Shown: piece by piece, positions 8,113 to 59,212 of the stretch
Layout: each line of letters opens with the position of its first letter
How positions within the stretch are numbered: position 1 is the stretch's first letter
Source of the DNA: Denitrovibrio sp.
GTDB lineage: Bacteria > Chrysiogenota > Deferribacteres > Deferribacterales > Geovibrionaceae
Length of the DNA: 64,000 bases
Reading direction: 5' to 3'
Assembly: GCA_002869145.1 (NCBI GenBank)
Contig: PKTM01000015.1
Coordinates: 124,001-188,000 of the forward strand
Made by a program: the position numbers and the translations under genes
The notes under the pieces: model-generated
The model's database searches: none
What the model was told of the DNA's origin: nothing
Seen by the model: only the letters and a program-made list of their open reading frames with translations

Positions 8113-8597
8113 TTTTCACCTCGTTTTCAGATTTATAAATATATACTGTATAAACCTCTGTGTAAAGGGCATTGCAAATGCTCATGCATTGGTACTATCT
8201 ATTGGTCTATATCTCTCTATGTTAGATATTTATGCAAAATATGGCATTTGATACATAGCTAATTTATCTATACTATTAGTTATCCCTATGCAAATTGCAG
8301 AAATAAACAAATTTCACATATATATCCATTTATACATTTTATCTACCAATTAAAACCCCTCGGTTGAAAGGCATTCAAAGGATTTAACGTACTAGCGCCC
8401 TATATACAAAGGTTTTATGACTATTGACATAATAGATATTGCATTGTATTATTTAGCAGAATCTTAAGTTTTTACTGAATATAACTTCAGAGCAAAAAGC
8501 ATCACAGCGCTGGCAGCCTATCAGCAGATTTGTTTGGTTAGCTAAGCAAATGTTTTTTTACTTAAGCTAAATTTTTTAAAAATATCTAGGAGTTTAT
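8113..8597. other. Intergenic region between divergent lolA and pyruvate carboxylase
   Basis: 485 AT-rich bases with no supportable gene. Near the lolA side is ATATACTGTATAAAC (about 8141-8155), a partial match to the palindrome seen before the TCA genes. Near the pyc side is an imperfect inverted repeat at 8538-8570. Promoters for both genes must lie here, but no clear -35/-10 pair stands out. Confidence 0.5.
8538..8576 (+). promoter_or_regulatory. Imperfect hairpin plus T run in the pyc leader (possible attenuator)
   Basis: TTAGCTAAG and CTTAAGCTAA pair with one bulge across a 14-base T-rich loop, followed by ATTTTTT. The ribosome-binding site AGGAG begins 11 bases later. The stem is AT-rich and weak, so a terminator role is uncertain. 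The position just before a truncated seven-codon start frame makes attenuation worth considering. Confidence 0.3.
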
Positions 8598-11500
8598 ATG
8601 AGAATTAAAAAGTTAATGTAAGCAAATAGAGGCGAAATAGCTATTCGTACTTTCAGAGCCTGCACCGAAATGGGTATAAGAACAGTTGCCCTATACTCTG
8701 ATGAAGACAAATATTCTCTACACAGATATAAGGCTGACGAGGCATACTCCATAGGTAAAGGACTTGACCCTGTTGCAGCTTATATGAACATTAACGAGAT
8801 CATAGAATTGGCCATACAGAAAAAGGTAGATGCCATACACCCCGGATATGGGTTTCTGGCTGAGAACGCCGAATTTGCAAGAGCCTGTAGTGAAGCAGGG
8901 ATAATCTTTGTAGGACCTAGTCCTGAAACAATCAATATGTTCGGCGATAAAAAGAATGCAAAAGTACTTGCAAAAGAGTGCGGTGTGCCTGTTATTGAGG
9001 GCTCAGAAGGCATAGTTTCCACTACAGACGAAGCTTTAGAAGTTTCTGAGACTATCGGGTACCCTGTGCTTATCAAAGCTGTCGCAGGCGGCGGCGGAAG
9101 AGGGATACGTGTTGCCAAAGATAAAAAAGAACTGCTCGAAAACTATGAGTCTGCAAAAAGCGAAGCATTAAAGGCTTTCGGCAACGGCGACATTATTATA
9201 GAAAAATATATTGAAGAGCCTAAGCATATAGAAGTTCAGCTTCTGGGCGACAAGCACGGAACCATAGTCCATCTTTTCGAACGGGACTGTTCCATTCAGC
9301 GCCGTCATCAAAAGCTTATAGAGATCGCGCCATCCATAAGCGTTGCTGACAAAACACTTAAATCTATGTATGATTCTGCTATAGCTATAGGTAAGAAATC
9401 GAAACTTATGAACGCTGCAACAGTGGAGTTTCTGGTAGATAAACATCAGGACTATTACTTTCTTGAAGTAAACCCCAGACTACAGGTGGAACACACCATA
9501 TCAGAACTGATAACAGGAATAGATATTGTTCAGGCACAGATACTTATCGCTCAGGGCGAAAAGCTCTCTACACCTGATATTGACATAAAATCCCAAAAAT
9601 CCATTCAGAAAAACGGATATGCTATTCAGTGCCGTGTAACTACTGAAGATCCGGAAAATAATTTTTTTCCTGACACAGGGGAAATACAAGCATATAGAGT
9701 TGCTACGGGGTTCGGTGTGCTGTTGGATGCCGGAAATGGTTTTGCAAACGCCAAGATTTCGCCTCACTATGACTCCCTCTTAGTGAAGGTGTCCACCCAC
9801 GCCCACTCCTTTAAGCAGACTGCAAGAAAAATGCAGAGAGCGCTCAGCGAATTTAGAATCAGAGGGGTAAAAACTAATATCCAGTTTCTGGAGAAGGTAG
9901 TCGCCCATGAAAAATTCCTTAAAGGCGATATAAACACCACCTTTGTAGACAACAACAAAGAGCTTGTAACATTTAAACAGCGTCAGGACAGAGCCACAAA
10001 AGCTCTGATGTTCCTTGCGAACAACATAGTAAACAACCCTTCAGGGACAAAGCTGTCAAAAGATATAATACTCCCTGCCATAAACCCTCCTTTTGTTCCA
10101 TACGGAACACCAGTACCAACAGGCACAAAGGACATCCTTAACAGGCGCGGAGTTGATGGGGTTATGGACTATCTCCGCCGCTCCAAAGAGGCTTTTTTCA
10201 CCGACACAACTTTCCGAGATGCTCACCAGTCACTGCTGGCGACTCGTGTGCGTTCCAAAGATATGCTTGAGATAGCTGACTACTACGCTCATAACCTCAG
10301 CGGACTTTTTTCTCTAGAGATGTGGGGCGGAGCCACGTTTGATGTATCCTACAGATTTCTAAAAGAATCACCTTGGGACAGGCTTGCACAGCTTCGTGAA
10401 AAGATTCCTAACATACTTTTTCAGATGCTTCTGCGTGCTTCAAACGCAGTGGGCTATACTAACTACCCTGATAATGTAGTGAAGGAGTTCATCAGGCTGG
10501 CCAGCGAGAATGGGATGGACGTTTTCCGCATTTTCGACTGTTTCAACTGGGTGGATCAGATGAAGCCAGCTATTGAAGAGGTTAAGAAACACAACCGAAT
10601 AGCTGAGGCAGCTATATGTTACACAGGAGATATCACAGATCCAAAAAGGACAAAATATTCTCTTAACTACTATACCGGGTTAGCAAAAGAGCTGGCTGAT
10701 GCGGGTACAGATATTATCGGCATAAAAGATATGGCAGGACTGCTGAAGCCCTATGCTGCAAAAACGCTTATCAAAGCTATTAAAGAGGAGACAGGTCTCC
10801 CTGTTCACTTCCACACCCACAACACAAGCGGAAACGCTGAAGCTGCATCACTTATGGCCTTTGAGGCTGGTGCAGATATTGTGGATGCCGCATTGAGTGC
10901 TATGAGCGGGCTGACTTCTCAGCCAAACATGAACTCTATTGCAGCCGCTCTTGATGGTCAGCCGAAAAACTCAACTCTGGACAAGAAAGCTATGCAGAAC
11001 GCCTCGGACTATTTTGACAGGGTAAGAAGATACTACTTTCCATTCGAAAGCGGTCTAAAAGCTTCATCCGCTGAGGTATATGAACACGAGATTCCCGGAG
11101 GTCAGTACTCCAACCTTATTGTACAGGTGGAAGCGATGGGGCTCATAGATAAATGGGAAGATGTCAGAAAAATGTACACTGCTGTGAACCGTGAACTGGG
11201 TGATATCATAAAGGTCACACCTTCGTCTAAAGTAGTGGGCGACCTTGCACTCTTCCTTGTTCGAAACGACCTTACAGTGGACGATCTTTACATAAAAGGT
11301 GACACTCTTAATTTCCCTGATTCAGTGGTATCTTTTTTTCAGGGAATGCTCGGTCAGCCATACGGCGGATTCCCAAGAGAACTACAAAATATTGTTCTTA
11401 AAGGTGAAAAACCGCTTGATAGCAGACCCGGAGAGCTGCTTGCTGATTTTGACTTCGTTGCCGCTAGGAACGAACTGAGTCTTCAGTTCGGAAGAGATTT

Positions 11501-47398: not shown

Positions 47399-48475
47399 CT
47401 AAGAGTATTTGTACAAAGCTGCACAAGCTCCTTCGGAACTAACCATGCAAGGGCCTACAGGGGATTCTGGTGTGCAGGCAGTGCCGAACAAAGAACAGCT
47501 TGAGGGTTTAATATAGCCTTTCAGAACTTCTCCGCAACTGCACCCTTCTATCTCGTCATCACCCTGAAGTGAAACGTCGAATTTCTTAAAAGCATCATAT
47601 TCCGCGTATTCATCTCTGAAGGCTAGCCCGCTGTCTTCTATATAGCCAATGCCGCGCCACCAACAGCCTTTTTTATAATACACTTCATCAATAACACTGC
47701 GAGCCTTAGCATTTCCCTCGTCGGCAACTACCCGGGAATAGCTGTTCACAGCCTTAAATTCGCCGTTGTTTGTCTGACGAACCATCTCCAGTATCGATGT
47801 TAGTATGTCAACAGGCTCAAACCCTGTGACCACTGCTGACATCCCTGCACTGACCACCGGTTCATAAAGCGAAAGTCCTGTAACAGCCGTAACATGTCCA
47901 GGGCATATAAATCCGTTTATTTTTAGGTTTTCATCGCTGAGCAAAAGCCCAAGAACCTCAGGCATTGTTTTGCTGTAAGGGGTTATTGATATATTTTTAA
48001 TGCCAGCTTTTTTTGCTGTCAAAGCCAAACTGGCAACGGCGGGGGCTGTCGTTTCAAAACCTATACCGACAAAGACAACTTCTTTATCAGTTTCGGCTGC
48101 AATTTTTATTGTATCAAGCGGCGAAAAAACTATACGCACATCAGCACCTTCGGACTTCATCTTCTGAAGGCTGACCCCTTTTGAGCCGGGAACACGCATC
48201 ATGTCGCCGAAAGTAACTATTACCGCACCTTTTTCAGCTATCTCAAAAAGAGCGTCTATCTCGCACTGAGGGGTAACACACACAGGGCAACCGGGTCCGG
48301 ACACAAGCTCGATGTTTTCAGGCAAAAGAGATTTTATACCGAAACGGGCAATAGCCATTGTGTGGCTTCCGCACACCTCCATAAACCTGTAGGAACCTGT
48401 AGCCTCTTTTAGTATCTGCCTGACAAGTTTGCTGCACAGCTCAGCATTGCGAAAACCTTCAATCATCGAGGCCAT
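47399..48475 (-). CDS. hypD: Hydrogenase maturation protein HypD
   Basis: 358 residues. Conserved HypD stretches: FMEVCGSHTMAIARFGIKSL, LVSGPGCPVCVTPQ, FVGIGFETTAPAV, GFICPGHVTAVTG, and the C-terminal 4Fe-4S cysteines in CSCGEVLKGYIKPSSC and LFGTACTPESPVGPCM. With HypC it builds the Fe(CN)2CO unit of NiFe hydrogenases. It overlaps hypC by 17 bp. The hydrogenase genes lie 7 kb away; hypA, B, E and F are not in the window. Confidence 0.94.
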   Translation of the reverse strand: MASMIEGFRNAELCSKLVRQILKEATGSYRFMEVCGSHTMAIARFGIKSLLPENIELVSGPGCPVCVTPQCEIDALFEIAEKGAVIVTFGDMMRVPGSKGVSLQKMKSEGADVRIVFSPLDTIKIAAETDKEVVFVGIGFETTAPAVASLALTAKKAGIKNISITPYSKTMPEVLGLLLSDENLKINGFICPGHVTAVTGLSLYEPVVSAGMSAVVTGFEPVDILTSILEMVRQTNNGEFKAVNSYSRVVADEGNAKARSVIDEVYYKKGCWWRGIGYIEDSGLAFRDEYAEYDAFKKFDVSLQGDDEIEGCSCGEVLKGYIKPSSCSLFGTACTPESPVGPCMVSSEGACAALYKYS

Positions 48476-49403: not shown

Positions 49404-49982
49404 TTATAATCTGATAACTTTGTCTGAGTTAAAGAGTTTATTGCCTACCGTGTGGGCATCGGTAACAGTACCTACTTTTAGCTCGTCAACAAGCTTATAA
49501 AACTCTAGGCATATTCCGCATGAAAGGATTTCCATACCTGAATCATCAAGCTCGCGCAGCAGAGGCACAGTCTCTTCATTTATTGTCGTCAGCCTAACAG
49601 CATTATTTACAAATATAACTGATTTTGGAGGATTTTCGAGGTTTTTCAAGTTTCCAATAAAACCCTTCATAAGCATTTTACCCAACTCAGGCTCTTCAGA
49701 GCCCACACACTCACCGCTTATAAGCACCACTGTCTCTTTATCAGATTTATAATCTGCATCAACAGCACAATCATAACCGACAGTTACATCAATCTGGTAA
49801 ACACCGTCTTTCTCTGTAACATTTGCAGTGTGTCCGTTTGACTCACAAAAGTTCTTCACATTCACACTGGAGCCTTTGTTGTCCACCAGAATGGTCAGTA
49901 TCCCTTCATCCATTTTTGAAAGTGATTCCTTTGCCATAAGAACCGGTTGAGGACAAGCAAGCCCCCTTGCATCTATTTCCAT
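49404..49982 (-). CDS. yedF: Sulfurtransferase-like selenium metabolism protein YedF (TusA-DsrE fusion)
   Basis: 192 residues. N-terminal TusA domain with MEIDARGLACPQPVLMAKES and its CPxP active site (about residues 10-13), then a DsrE-like domain (VVLISGECVGSEEPELGKML, KSVIFVNNAVRLTT, EILSCGICLEFYKLVDELKV with a Cys pair). YedF proteins occur with selenium-using bacteria; their exact role is not settled. GGAG precedes the ATG. Its stop TAA forms part of the ribosome-binding site of the rhomboid gene. Whether this organism uses selenocysteine cannot be judged from the window. Confidence 0.88.
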   Translation of the reverse strand: MEIDARGLACPQPVLMAKESLSKMDEGILTILVDNKGSSVNVKNFCESNGHTANVTEKDGVYQIDVTVGYDCAVDADYKSDKETVVLISGECVGSEEPELGKMLMKGFIGNLKNLENPPKSVIFVNNAVRLTTINEETVPLLRELDDSGMEILSCGICLEFYKLVDELKVGTVTDAHTVGNKLFNSDKVIRL

Positions 49983-50121: not shown

Positions 50122-51627
50122 TTACTTGTGACATGCGCCGCAAGATGTAGTAGCTCTCATCTCTTTGTGACACTTGATGCAGAGCTCTGTGTGGAAGACA
50201 TTTTTTGTGCCTTCGACAACTTCCGGAACTTCAAACTTAAGCATACCGGCCTCAGGATATTCGTGACATGAAGCACATGCAAGTCTTTCTGCGTGGCCTT
50301 TGTGCTCAAAGATAACAGCCTTCTTTTTGCCTTCAGGAGCATATCTCTCTTTCAGGTCGATTGTTTCAAGACCTTCGAGAATAGACATCATCTCTTCTGA
50401 GTTAACAGGTCCTGTTTTTTCAGCGTGTGTCTCTTCTTCTGACACGCTTTGAGCTGTAATAACAGGTGCATGAGTCTCCTCAGTCTCTTCAGGCTCTACA
50501 TAATTTTTGATTTTCGCTGTAAGATCGTTAGCTTTTTCGAACATCATGTCAAAATACTCAGGGTTGTGAACACCTTCCGAGCCGTCGCTTTCGATAACTC
50601 TTACAATATAAAGAAGCTCATTAGTGAGTTCTCTCTGGCCGTGAGGCATTGCTTCACGTTTAGCCATATAGAAATCTCTCTGCTTCTGAACTTTAACAAG
50701 CTGTTCGTTAAAGTAATTCTGTGTATCTGTCATTATATCAGCGTATGATTCATCGTGACACATAACACATGTATCAGTATTAGGTCTTATAAAAGCACTT
50801 TCGTGACAGTCTGAGCAGTCGAGGTCTGCCATATACCAGCTGTAACCTTCGATACCTTCTGCGTAAGTGCCTTCCTGAATTTCTTTTTGAGCTACGTGAC
50901 AAGTAGCACAGTCATCGTTCGCATGCGGGCTAGCCTGAGCACGAACGTCATCGTGACACTCAAAACATGTAGCCATCTCAGGCTCATGGAATCTCTCTCC
51001 GCTGTGACCTATGCCAAGGTGGCAGTTGAAACAGCTGAGTCCCATGTCTTTGTGCAGTGTGTGGTTTGGTTCAACACCGGCCTGTACACCATCTGCAAAA
51101 ACATCGGCTCGGCCGTATTCTTCACGGTATTCAGGCATAACGACTTCATCCATATGTCTGAACTCACCTGCGATCTTGATAATTCTATTTCTGCGCATCT
51201 CTTTATTTGCTTCATCTGAATGGCAGTAAAGGCAGGAGTCTTCAAAAGCTGCTTTCTCTGCACCTTCAACAGTAGATCCGTAATGAGTAAGGTCTTCTAT
51301 AATTTGCTCTTCAGATGTGAATATTTCGTGATAAAGGCTTCTTGTTCCAGCAACAATGTGAGCATCTAAATACCCTATAATGCCGGGATCTCCATGACAG
51401 TCAAGACAGCTAACATCTACTTCGCTGTGTATACTTTTTCTCCAAGTATAATATTCGCCTCTGACAGCTATCTCTTCTTTCGCATGACAAGTCTGACAGA
51501 ACTCCGCAGTACTTGTCGCATGCATTGTCTGTACGCCTATAAAGCCAGCTCCGACTACTACTAAGGCGATGATTATTGTAAAGATTAGAGGGTCTTTACA
51601 ACTGAATTCTTTTATTTTTTGCCACAT
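50122..51627 (-). CDS. Eleven-heme membrane-anchored c-type cytochrome (NapC-like N-terminus)
   Basis: 501 residues from the ATG (a GTG four codons earlier is less likely). One N-terminal membrane anchor (DPLIFTIIIALVVVGAGFIG), then 11 CXXCH heme sites: CQTCH, CLDCH, CLYCH, CFNCH, CFECH, CATCH, CSDCH, CVMCH before an acidic linker (about residues 365-405), and CASCH, CIKCH, CGACH after it. The first part resembles NapC/NirT-type quinol dehydrogenases, the end a small triheme domain. It would pass electrons from the quinone pool to periplasmic reductases. No partner reductase is adjacent. Single-gene unit between two terminators. Confidence 0.85.
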   Translation of the reverse strand: MWQKIKEFSCKDPLIFTIIIALVVVGAGFIGVQTMHATSTAEFCQTCHAKEEIAVRGEYYTWRKSIHSEVDVSCLDCHGDPGIIGYLDAHIVAGTRSLYHEIFTSEEQIIEDLTHYGSTVEGAEKAAFEDSCLYCHSDEANKEMRRNRIIKIAGEFRHMDEVVMPEYREEYGRADVFADGVQAGVEPNHTLHKDMGLSCFNCHLGIGHSGERFHEPEMATCFECHDDVRAQASPHANDDCATCHVAQKEIQEGTYAEGIEGYSWYMADLDCSDCHESAFIRPNTDTCVMCHDESYADIMTDTQNYFNEQLVKVQKQRDFYMAKREAMPHGQRELTNELLYIVRVIESDGSEGVHNPEYFDMMFEKANDLTAKIKNYVEPEETEETHAPVITAQSVSEEETHAEKTGPVNSEEMMSILEGLETIDLKERYAPEGKKKAVIFEHKGHAERLACASCHEYPEAGMLKFEVPEVVEGTKNVFHTELCIKCHKEMRATTSCGACHK

Positions 51628-51654
51628 AATTGCCCCCACAGTAACTTTGATGGA

Positions 51655-55195: not shown

Positions 55196-56629
55196 ATGGC
55201 AAAGACCATCTCTATTGAACCGCTCACCCGGATCGAAGGTCATATGAAAGTTGAGACCCATGTCGAAGGTGAAAGGGTCGCTGATGCAAAAATCAGCGGT
55301 CAGATGTACAGAGGATTTGAAAAGTTTCTCGAAGGCCGACACCCAGTAGATGCAGCTAGAATAGCCCAGCGCGTATGCGGTGTCTGTCACGAAGTTCACG
55401 GTGTCGCCTCAATACTGGCACTGGAGGAACTATACAAAAACCCTTCACCTAAAAACGGCCAAATATTAAGAGATCTTATCCTTGGTCTTCATTTGGTGAC
55501 CGACCATTTCCTGCATTTCTATACTTTATGTGTACCTGACTTCGTGGATTTTACAAAGATACTGGAATACAACGGGAACGACACAAATATCAACACACTT
55601 AAAAGCTGGGTTATTAAAACAAAACCTCAGTTTGTGCTGAAACGAAATGCCGGAAACTACATCAGTGACACAAACACCTGCCTTACAATGATTAACAATT
55701 ATTTTCAGGCGCTAAAAGTTCGTTCGAAGGGGGCTTCCGGTATAGCTCTTCTTGGAGCAAAAGCACCGTTCACACACGCAGTTCTCCCGGGCGGTGTAAC
55801 CACAGATATCTCCCCTGACAGACTGATGCAGTATTTTAATGTACTGGAAGAGGTAAAAAACTTCGCTATGAACCACTACATTCCGGATGTAATGGAGCTG
55901 GCCTCCAGATATCCAGAATATTTCGACATAGGAGTCAGTTACAACAGTTTTTATGCCAATGAAACCTTTAAAGTGCTCGGTGAACCGGTTTTTAAAGGGG
56001 GCGTTATACTAAACGGCAGCGAACAGTCATTCTCTTTTGGCAATGTAAAAGAATTCTATGACAACTCTTTTTATGATTCCAAAGGGGAGCCGGCTCCTAA
56101 AAAGAGCGGCGCATACAGCTGGACAAAATCTCCGAGATATTCAGGAGAGCCAGTGGAGGTTGGACCGCTTGCCAGAATGATAGTAAACAAAGACGAGTAT
56201 TTTTATAAAACCATGAAGAAGCTGGGCGGAAAAGTCCAGTCCTCGACAATGGGCAGACATGTAGCGAGAGCTGTGGAGTCCCGAAACATCATCGAACACC
56301 TTTACCTTTTGCTTGATGCATACAAATTCGGCGAACCTAATATCAAGCAGGTAGACTTCGATAAGAAAGTTTCAGGTGTAGGAACCGGATTTTCCATCGC
56401 CGCAAGGGGTGCACTTATCCACCAGATAGAGGCGGATAAAGGGAAAATAGTCAGGTACAACATGATAGTTCCGAGTACGTGGAACTTCGGTCCGATGGCA
56501 GACGGGAAAATAGGCGTGGCAGAAAAGGCGCTTATAGACACACCTGTGAAATTCAGCAGCAACAACTCCATTGAAGTGGGCAGAGTCATCAGAAGTTATG
56601 ACCCGTGTACTGCCTGCTCTATCCACTAG
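55196..56629 (+). CDS. NiFe hydrogenase large subunit, no C-terminal extension
   Basis: 477 residues. N-terminal ISIEPLTRIEGHMKVE, L1 cysteine motif RVCGVCHEVHG (residues 59-69) and L2 motif DPCTACSIH (469-477) supply the four Cys ligands of the NiFe site. The protein ends exactly at the His of L2, whereas most large subunits carry a 15-residue or longer tail that a protease removes during maturation. It therefore would not need the endopeptidase. First gene of a large-small-MCP operon, an unusual order. The small subunit carries the Tat signal and should bring this subunit to the periplasm. Confidence 0.93.
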   Translation: MAKTISIEPLTRIEGHMKVETHVEGERVADAKISGQMYRGFEKFLEGRHPVDAARIAQRVCGVCHEVHGVASILALEELYKNPSPKNGQILRDLILGLHLVTDHFLHFYTLCVPDFVDFTKILEYNGNDTNINTLKSWVIKTKPQFVLKRNAGNYISDTNTCLTMINNYFQALKVRSKGASGIALLGAKAPFTHAVLPGGVTTDISPDRLMQYFNVLEEVKNFAMNHYIPDVMELASRYPEYFDIGVSYNSFYANETFKVLGEPVFKGGVILNGSEQSFSFGNVKEFYDNSFYDSKGEPAPKKSGAYSWTKSPRYSGEPVEVGPLARMIVNKDEYFYKTMKKLGGKVQSSTMGRHVARAVESRNIIEHLYLLLDAYKFGEPNIKQVDFDKKVSGVGTGFSIAARGALIHQIEADKGKIVRYNMIVPSTWNFGPMADGKIGVAEKALIDTPVKFSSNNSIEVGRVIRSYDPCTACSIH

Positions 56630-56638
56630 GAGGAAAAC

Positions 56639-57595
56639 ATGTCTATACAAATGAATAGAAGAGAATTTCTGAAAAGATGCAGGTATGTCTCCGTGCTGGT
56701 TTTCGGCAGCACGATATTTACTAACGAAATAGCAGAAGGGTTCACTAAGCTTTCAGAAGCTGAACGCCCTCAGGTAATTTTCATACAGTCACAGTGCTGC
56801 ACCGGCTGCAGTATCTCCGCCACTTACGGCAACGAATCAGACTTCATAGACTTCGTAACAAACATAATCAGACTTCAGGTTCACCCGAATATCTCTTTTG
56901 CGCAAGGGGTTGACTATATGTCCCTTATAAATGAAGTAGCGGACAGCGGTCCGTTTTATCTGGTTTGTGAAGGCTCTATCCCTGCGGTGATGAAAGAGGC
57001 CTGCGTGTTTAACGAAGAGCCAATGTATGACTACATGCACAAACTGATGAACAAGGCAGCAGCTATAATATCATCAGGCACCTGCGCATGCTACGGCGGC
57101 ATACCAGCCTCTAACCAAAATGTAACCGGGGCTATAGCAATAGACGAATACATGAAACGTACTGGCGTTAAAAAGCCTATGATAAAGATCCCCGGATGTC
57201 CTATCCAGCCAGACAGGCTGATGGGGACAGTGGCATATATAGTAGCTACAGGCAAACTGCCGGAGCTGGTAGACGGGAAACCGAAAAGATACTTCGGTGA
57301 ACTTATCCATGATCAATGCGGAAGATATCAGGCTTTTAATCAGGGGCACTACACAAAAGACTATGCAAAAGACAAGCTTAAATGCCTTTTGAAAAACGGA
57401 TGCAGAGGACCAGTGGTGCACTCCGACTGCCCTACAAGAAGATGGAACGGTAAGGTAAACGTCTGCATAGAGAGTAACACACCCTGTATAGGCTGCATTC
57501 ACGACGATTTTCCGTTCAATTCACCGCTTTATCTTTCTGAAGCCTCATTTGATGACATCTCATGGTCTGAAATGAAGAAGAAGATGGAGAAGTAG
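56639..57595 (+). CDS. NiFe hydrogenase small subunit with Tat signal
   Basis: 318 residues. Twin-arginine motif NRREFLKRC (residues 6-14) followed by a short hydrophobic stretch ([12 protein letters not shown]) marks Tat export. Fe-S ligands: CCTGC near 53-57 and [14 protein letters not shown] for the proximal cluster; [33 protein letters not shown] for the distal and medial clusters. There is no C-terminal membrane helix, so the heterodimer is likely soluble in the periplasm or held by a partner. AGGAGG precedes the ATG, 9 bp after the large-subunit stop. Catalytic direction (uptake or sensing) is not evident. Confidence 0.92.
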
Positions 57596-57597
57596 CC

Positions 57598-59172
57598 ATG
57601 AAAAATTCTATAAAAGCACGGGTGGCAATGTATACCATCATCCCAATGTTGCTCATAGCAGTTGTATTCATAGCTCTGGACACAAAAAAGAACAGACTTG
57701 TGGAAGATTCTATGAATGAATATATGTACTACCTTAAAGACATGATATTCATGTCCACGTTCGATTCCCTTAAAAAGGGAAACATGAGAGTATTTGAGGA
57801 ACATCTGGAAGAGATAGGTCATTACGATCAAGTGAATGAATTCTCACTTCTCGACCCTGACGGGACAGTCCATTACTCTTCGGAAAAGGAACTCTTAAAA
57901 AGTAAGGTCGATCTGTCGGATGTAAGCGAAACTGATCAAACTATCATGACAAATGACAATGAGACTATATTCTTTTATCCGGTACAAACCACACAGTACT
58001 GCCTGAGATGCCACAGAGACTGGACCGAAGGCAAGATTAACTCATTTTATAAAGTTAATCTGGACAGTTCTTCTATAAGCACTATCAAATCTATGTCATT
58101 ATTTAACAATATACTTTTGGGTGTTGCTGCGATTATTGCTGTGTGCATAGTTATAGTTGTTATACAAAGACAGATATTTGCAAGACTGCAGCGAGCGAAT
58201 GATGTTCTTGACGACCTCTGTTCAGGAGAAGGTGACCTGACAATAACCATACCTGTAAGAAGTATGGACGAGATAGGTACTCTAAGGCATAAGATAAACG
58301 TATTCATCGAGCATCTCAGAGAGATGATGGAACAGCTTAAAGGCAGTATCGAAGAGGTAGATGGAGAGATAGGCAATATCCAGAGCTCCATTACAACCAT
58401 TAACGAATCTGTGCAGGAAAATGTTTCGCACATCATGTCCATATCCTCATCTTCTGAGCAGGTTTCCACCACTCTGGGCGAGAACACCAGAAACCTTATG
58501 CAGCTTAATGAAAATGTTACCAGTAAAAAAGAGAAGATATCAGAGTCGCTTAAGAGTGTATCTGAAATAACTTCAACCATTGCATCCATGTCCGCTACTG
58601 TTGACAAGCTGAGTATGACTGCCGGAGACCTAGAGAAGAAGTCTAATGATATTACAAATATCACAAGCCTTATCACTGATGTTGCTGACCAGACAAACCT
58701 TTTGGCTCTTAATGCTGCCATTGAGGCTGCAAGAGCCGGCGAAGCTGGAAGAGGCTTTGCTGTGGTCGCAGACGAGATACGTAAGCTGGCTGAAAGAACT
58801 GCTGGCGCCACAAGTGAGATTAAGTCTATAGTCGGGGAAAACTCTAAAACCATAGGCGAGTTTGTTGCTGAGATAGAAAACAACAAAGAACAGGCGAAAC
58901 AGATGAATCAGAGTGTTGCTGACCTTGAGGAATTTACCCATGAAGTAGATACCACAATGACAGATATTTCAGATAATATTAACACTTTAAACAGTATGAT
59001 ATCTGAAAGCATCAGCGCGCTGGAACTCACTCTGAACAATATCGAGATGGTAAATAATAATATGTCCAGCACTGGGCAAGTGTCAGAAGACATATCAGAA
59101 ACCACTAGAATGCTCGGTGAAAAAAGCCGCAGCATGAAAGAGATAGCTGATAAGTTTAAAACTAGAAAATAA
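57598..59172 (+). CDS. Methyl-accepting chemotaxis protein with periplasmic c-type heme motif
   Basis: 524 residues. Membrane helices near 11-28 and 170-190 enclose a periplasmic sensor of about 140 residues containing CLRCH (135-139), a c-type heme attachment site, within a Cache/PAS-like strand pattern ([28 protein letters not shown]). A HAMP linker (190-245) and the MCP signalling domain with hairpin tip [36 protein letters not shown] follow. Such heme receptors are known for redox or oxygen sensing. The gene begins 2 bp after the hydrogenase small-subunit stop, with its ribosome-binding site (GGAG) inside that gene, so all three are co-transcribed. Electrons from hydrogen could reach this heme; that is an inference. 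No C-terminal methylesterase-binding pentapeptide is seen. Confidence 0.88.
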
Positions 59173-59179
59173 CAGAAAT

Positions 59180-59212
59180 TTTGCCTCGGACAATCTCTGT
59201 CCGGGGCTTTGC
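59180..59212 (+). terminator. Terminator of the hydrogenase-chemoreceptor operon
   Basis: GCCTCGGACA / TGTCCGGGGC stem with one mismatch and a 5-base loop, then TTT. Confidence 0.75.

Follow-up and report, generated by a model that had tools for sequence, protein, structure and literature searches.

Here, we analyse a hydrogenase-chemoreceptor operon of Denitrovibrio sp. (assembly GCA_002869145.1) that lies in a stretch of 64,000 nucleotides of contig PKTM01000015.1 (positions 124,001 to 188,000 of the forward strand). The whole stretch is called the window, and coordinates refer to it unless another locus is named. The first gene (55196..56629, plus strand) encodes a hydrogenase large subunit (LSU) of 477 amino acids (PF00374, E 2.4e-99), and the second (56639..57595, plus strand) a small subunit (SSU) of 318 amino acids with matches to PF01058 and PF14720. 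The third (57598..59172, plus strand) encodes a chemoreceptor of 524 amino acids with two transmembrane helices, a predicted periplasmic c-type heme sensor and the signalling domain of a methyl-accepting chemotaxis protein (MCP; MCPsignal, E 1.1e-36). The three open reading frames are co-directional, with gaps of 9 bp between LSU and SSU and 2 bp between SSU and receptor, and from this spacing we infer that they are co-transcribed. Since the flanks are a divergent hemL-like gene upstream and an argC-like gene (semialdehyde dehydrogenase family) downstream, the operon consists of these three genes only. An original prediction, made from the letters of the window, had proposed a large-then-small [NiFe] hydrogenase followed 2 bp later by an MCP, with Tat, L1, L2 and heme motifs; the open reading frames and Pfam matches bear out this gene order, and all the motifs are present.

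The nearest solved structures for both subunits are periplasmic [NiFeSe] hydrogenases, with HysA being closest to the LSU. The nickel ligands of the L1 motif RVCGVC (C61-G-V-C64; 55376..55387, plus strand) are both Cys in 48/48 alignable LSUs of the triplet loci described below and in 8/8 controls. The L2 motif DPCTACSIH (56600..56626, plus strand) forms the final nine residues of the LSU, and 49/49 triplet LSUs stop exactly there, whereas respiratory control LSUs either run 14-15 amino acids beyond L2 or have a selenocysteine codon. The first nickel ligand of L2, C471, is encoded by a Cys codon in the window, and the L2 Cys is found in 49/49 triplets. Membership of the [NiFeSe] hydrogenases is ruled out, as L2 carries Cys rather than selenocysteine. 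A residue census of the 49 linked LSUs finds both Cys pairs, the proton-transfer Glu and the terminal His retained.

The SSU starts with the Tat signal motif MNRREFLK, the twin arginine of which (56657..56662, plus strand) is present in at least 90% of relatives. Alignment to 2wpn and 1cc1 shows that the residues which ligate three [4Fe-4S] clusters are present. The medial cluster has four Cys, as is the case in [NiFeSe] enzymes, and the Cys and His columns are invariant over 23 relatives. Because the nickel ligands, the proton-transfer Glu and the cluster ligands are all kept, the hydrogenase is predicted to turn over H2.

In the receptor, the heme attachment site CLRCH (residues 135-139, with C135, C138 and H139; 58000..58014, plus strand) is situated between the transmembrane helices (residues 9-27 and 171-189). 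It belongs to the module that is conserved in the family, a periplasmic heme sensor domain of PAS/sCache-like type with approximate limits at 57679..58107 (plus strand). The AlphaFold2 model of this domain (18 relatives, mean pLDDT 88) consists of the transmembrane helix, a further helix, a beta sheet, a short helix with the CLRCH motif and a last strand leading to the second transmembrane helix, and a Foldseek search with it returns sCache/PAS domains, the best solved ones at E about 1e-5. The MCP signalling domain (PF00015) covers residues 332-485 (58591..59052, plus strand), and a HAMP domain scores under the Pfam cut-off (22.7 vs 25).

Among 48 linked sensors, G61, F66, C135, C138 and H139 are invariant. 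Met63 (57784..57786, plus strand), the predicted distal heme ligand, is Met in 42/48 sensors, namely in 42/42 of those with a single heme, while it is Arg in exactly the six that have two CXXCH motifs (L052-L054, L186, L188 and L189). No part of the receptor is more conserved than the heme site with this putative Met ligand. In GSU0935 of Geobacter, His144 ligates the heme, while Met60 binds it in the reduced form and leaves on oxidation, a change regarded as the signal (PMC8396549). Because His139 and Met63 match this pair, a redox-linked ligand pair is to be expected in the window receptor as well.

We now consider how widely this arrangement occurs. Whole-genome searches covered two phyla, that of the window (51 genomes) and Thermodesulfobacteriota (395 sampled genomes), and over all searches, a contig scan included, there are 50 loci of the LSU-SSU-sensor kind in these phyla, a recurrence that places the arrangement far beyond chance. 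In every locus that could be assessed, LSU, SSU and sensor are co-directional, the LSU ends at DPCxxCxxH, and the sensor spans the membrane and has the one type of CXXCH domain. A search with the SSU in the window's phylum resulted in 20 high-scoring loci in 16/51 genomes (11/12 in the window's own family, 2/3 in family f5 and 3/3 in family f10), all 20 being followed by a transmembrane CXXCH sensor. In the second phylum, the triplet is present in 21/395 genomes, in one of which it ends at a contig edge ahead of the sensor. The genome search suggested by the original prediction has thus found the triplet conserved well beyond a single strain, in two phyla.

Since finding relatives through the sensor could bias the linkage, the 395 genomes were also searched with the SSU only. 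The sensor search had pointed to nine genomes, all with LSU-SSU-sensor loci, plus one extra unlinked sensor in genome G210. The SSU-only search added 16 new loci, of which one, L184, is truncated at the edge of its contig, and the sensor is present in 15/15 of the assessable ones, compared to 0/19 of the next-best SSU matches (Fisher 5e-10, uncorrected for kinship). A selection artefact is thereby ruled out. The SSU profile score separates the two groups: at 347 bits or more, the SSU is preceded by an LSU ending at DPCxxCxxH and followed by a CXXCH sensor, whereas at 326 or less it precedes an LSU which, where complete, has a 14-15 amino acid extension or stops at the selenocysteine position, and a sensor never stands behind it. 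The partial SSU of L066, on a cut contig, scores 334, and its sensor is present. A scan with the sensor domain over bacterial and archaeal genome contigs gave matches confined to the window's phylum and Desulfuromonadales, including metagenome-assembled genomes (MAGs) of Desulfuromonas.

The linked enzymes also form a group of their own. In a maximum-likelihood SSU tree of 51 rows, a branch with support 100/98 separates them from the other SSUs, and a larger tree of 87 rows (49 linked, 38 other) gives the same split with an SH-aLRT of 98; both trees being read as unrooted, the claim is limited to one side of a branch. The gene order is the opposite in the respiratory hydrogenases, whether taken from these searches or from the window's own genome; they have a tail of 14-15 amino acids or a selenocysteine and no adjoining sensor. 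The respiratory control of the own genome, L142 on contig C29, has for example the order SSU-LSU with a 15-amino-acid extension, followed by a protease-like gene of 157 amino acids. That the hydrogenase is an ordinary uptake enzyme which has a receptor beside it by chance was rejected as the leading explanation, because the arrangement recurs, the branch is separate and the maturation tail is missing.

The outputs of the sensors are not always chemoreceptors. Over the 50 loci we find 39 MCPs, 3 GGDEF or GGDEF-EAL proteins and 7 kinases, with one output not visible. The GGDEF-linked loci are L036, L050 and L051, with GGDEF-EAL as the output in family f5. L036 belongs to the window's own genome (G000, contig C23, 6367-10613, minus strand) and is a second hydrogenase-sensor operon with a PAS-PAS-GGDEF output, so that this genome holds both an MCP version and a GGDEF version. 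In the loci of Desulfuromonas MAGs the output is PAS-HisKA-HATPase. In L186, L188 and L189, the two-CXXCH sensors are joined to PAS-like, Hpt-like (assigned partly by eye) and HATPase segments, giving a membrane-bound kinase that resembles CheA, and a second type of chemoreceptor has a C-terminal segment that looks, by eye, like the CZB zinc-binding domain. As judged from the sequences, enzyme and sensing domain are co-inherited, and it is the output half that is exchanged. The strongest reason to count the enzyme as part of the input, and not as a mere neighbour, is that the outputs swap behind a constant enzyme and sensor; the unit would accordingly be an H2/redox input module with hydrogen taxis as its commonest output.

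The original prediction had guessed that electrons from H2, or the redox state of the hydrogenase, act on the MCP heme and that swimming is steered in this way. Of the readings considered, this is the one best supported by the comparisons above, and the GGDEF, GGDEF-EAL and histidine-kinase outputs behind the same hydrogenase and heme sensor go further than it did. We consider it probable that the three proteins form a periplasmic H2-sensing receptor complex, in which three FeS clusters would carry electrons from H2 to the heme of the receptor, and these would from there control steering or another output. The heterodimer would mature in the cytoplasm with no proteolytic tail removal and be exported by Tat via the SSU signal. 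H2 would be split in the periplasm, and the electrons would run through the three [4Fe-4S] clusters of the SSU to the c-type heme of the receptor encoded by the neighbouring gene. On reduction of the heme, Met63 would bind opposite His139, and on its oxidation by periplasmic oxidants Met63 would be released. This ligand switch may be transmitted through the second transmembrane helix to the MCP signalling domain and on to CheA/CheW (11 CheW-domain matches are found in the window's own genome), such that the cell would steer by the balance of H2 and oxidant; the receptor would accordingly read not H2 by itself but H2 relative to the oxidants of the periplasm. The same input may in relatives drive a GGDEF, GGDEF-EAL or histidine-kinase output, that is, cyclic di-GMP or a response regulator. 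The more general proposal, that this exported [NiFe] lineage is an input module wiring electrons into receptor hemes with interchangeable outputs, and the first defined candidate for a receptor of bacterial H2 taxis, also appears likely to us, if by a somewhat smaller measure.

An alternative takes the hydrogenase for an ordinary uptake enzyme of the periplasm that feeds soluble cytochromes, and the receptor for a general sensor of redox or oxygen that is co-expressed with it, so that swimming would follow the redox state whenever H2 metabolism is active. The complete catalytic ligands would fit this, as would the sensors of the family that stand unlinked, and GSU0935 and DcrA indeed sense redox or oxygen with no known hydrogenase partner (PMC8396549). 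However, the window operon has neither an anchor subunit nor a cytochrome, and the linked enzymes stand on their separate branch, tailless and in reversed order. In addition, the linkage to the sensor persists when the output is a diguanylate cyclase or a kinase, which is not what one would expect from co-regulation with chemotaxis. We therefore regard this alternative as unlikely.

Another option considered was conformational coupling, where the H2-bound hydrogenase signals by protein contact and the heme serves for gating by O2 or NO. The missing C-terminal tail, a trait also of the HoxC/HupV large subunits, is in line with it. HoxBC acts on its kinase HoxJ, presumably through interaction (PMC6978683), and CO and NO bind to GSU-type hemes (PMC8396549). 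The FeS relay is, however, retained in essentially all members, and conservation in the receptor is highest precisely at the heme site and the putative Met ligand, which makes this option quite improbable. A reverse flow, in which the receptor or periplasmic cytochromes would let the hydrogenase discharge reductant as H2 while the receptor reports over-reduction, draws on the reversibility of [NiFe] enzymes and on the nearest solved relatives being [NiFeSe] enzymes, which favour H2 evolution, but a single heme offers little electron supply and the operon encodes no cytochrome partner, so that we give it hardly any weight.

It should be pointed out that several observations weigh against the electron-relay receptor complex that we favour. 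In regulatory hydrogenases, Ile and Phe in the gas channel replace the Val and Leu of catalytic enzymes, and the window enzyme has V63 and L111 at these positions, as inferred from spacing, with 42 Val/6 Ile and 47 Leu/1 Met among the relatives. In the SSUs of three members (L122-L124), the CxGC motif of the proximal cluster is changed to CxGD or CxGE. The Foldseek matches of the sensor model to GSU0935 (E 0.009) and GSU0582 (E 0.027) are weak and complicated by domain swapping in the crystals, and a PDB search with the sensor alignment detected no useful sequence similarity to these two solved domains. The distances of sensors and SSUs correlate with an r of 0.88, for some of which shared descent accounts. 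At the window operon, a promoter scan scored no better than shuffles. In L049 (about 8348-9960) of G018, a single-contig genome of the same genus, an insertion-sequence-like element of ~1.5 kb parts the 3' end of the SSU gene from the receptor, so that the operon is naturally broken there. Finally, members of the sensor family without an adjacent hydrogenase exist (L098, 8627-11305; L099, 9377-11302; L100, 9192-11051; L132, 3388-4146), from which it follows that the sensor domain can function without one. L132 consists of the sensor and a HAMP-like stretch with no output domain.

As regards the hydrogenase classes, HydDB lists sensory [NiFe] group 2b (acting through a kinase), a putative group 2c (diguanylate cyclase) and a putative [FeFe] group C2 (chemotaxis) (PMC5037454). 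With group 2b, that is HoxBC/HupUV and their partners HoxJ/HupT, the window system shares a hydrogenase as H2 sensor (a proposed one here) ahead of a signalling protein, which in some of the loci is likewise a kinase, and an LSU that has no C-terminal extension. HoxBC is cytoplasmic, however, while the window-type SSU has a Tat signal, the gas channel is not of the Ile/Phe type, the enzyme is nearest to [NiFeSe] and group 1 enzymes, and the receptor is transmembrane with a periplasmic c-type heme. Like uptake enzymes of group 1, the window enzyme is a heterodimer with an intact NiFe site and, by its motif, Tat export; unlike them, it has the SSU gene in second place, no C-terminal extension with its protease, and no membrane anchor or cytochrome partner in the operon. 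The original prediction of a periplasmic hydrogenase needs the correction that an ordinary periplasmic uptake enzyme it is not, given the absent extension and the reversed gene order. Group 2c resembles L036, L050 and L051 in linking a GGDEF protein to a hydrogenase, but it belongs to the alternative and sensory group 2 of HydDB, while here the enzyme is exported and group 1-like and shares its heme sensor with the versions that have an MCP or kinase output. For [FeFe] group C2, signalling via a methyl-accepting chemotaxis protein is similarly predicted; C2 is a different metalloenzyme from the PF00374 NiFe LSU of the window and is not known to work with a heme receptor or with a [NiFe] enzyme that is exported.

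On the receptor side, GSU0935 and GSU0582 of Geobacter and DcrA of Desulfovibrio have the same two transmembrane helices, periplasmic PAS-like domain, single CXXCH and MCP output, and receptors of the GSU0935 kind have the His/Met ligand pair predicted here, but no partner enzyme is known for them. Periplasmic HysAB is the nearest solved enzyme by sequence in both subunits and has the same four-Cys medial cluster; it differs in its gene order (opposite in the relatives examined), its L2 selenocysteine, its place on another branch of the SSU tree and its lack of a sensor. Hydrogen taxis is reported for Methanococcus maripaludis (as cited in PMC4266047) and suspected in the sulfate reducer Oleidesulfovibrio (PMC12004927), with no receptor given in the excerpts of these two sources, and the excerpts of two Deferribacter genome papers (PMC13186404, PMC6896113) mention respiratory hydrogenases only. 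In the literature searched, with subscription papers mostly outside its scope, we found no description of an operon of a NiFe hydrogenase and a heme receptor, and none of a receptor for hydrogen taxis.

Gradients of H2 structure anaerobic communities, and the present family offers a concrete and testable candidate for an H2 receptor. The mechanism proposed for it is one in which an enzyme would hand the electrons of its own substrate to the heme of a receptor. The sensory hydrogenases would thereby gain a separate, exported branch, and surveys should not score such genes as genes of H2 respiration. The natural swaps between input and output might also be usable for H2-responsive circuits.

Some further features of the window can be mentioned. 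A 10-bp hairpin 3' of the receptor gene (59183..59207, plus strand) is a probable terminator, with -20.6 kcal/mol for the stretch, a z of -3.4 and 0 equally good shuffles. The terminator that had been predicted to close the operon thus has its hairpin, but since the T-run following it is only weak, this assignment is likely and not certain. The hypD gene, needed for the maturation of any [NiFe] hydrogenase here, is located outside the operon, at a distance of ~7 kb (47399..48475, minus strand; TIGR00075, E 1.3e-127), and is the single match in the genome; the gene that follows it encodes an HflX-type GTPase, not another Hyp protein. Near hypD there is a gene for a YedF-type selenium metabolism protein (49404-49982, minus strand), and at 50122-51639 (minus strand) one for a multiheme cytochrome of 505 amino acids, which has a NapC/NirT-type N-terminus and cytochrome c3/c7-like repeats.

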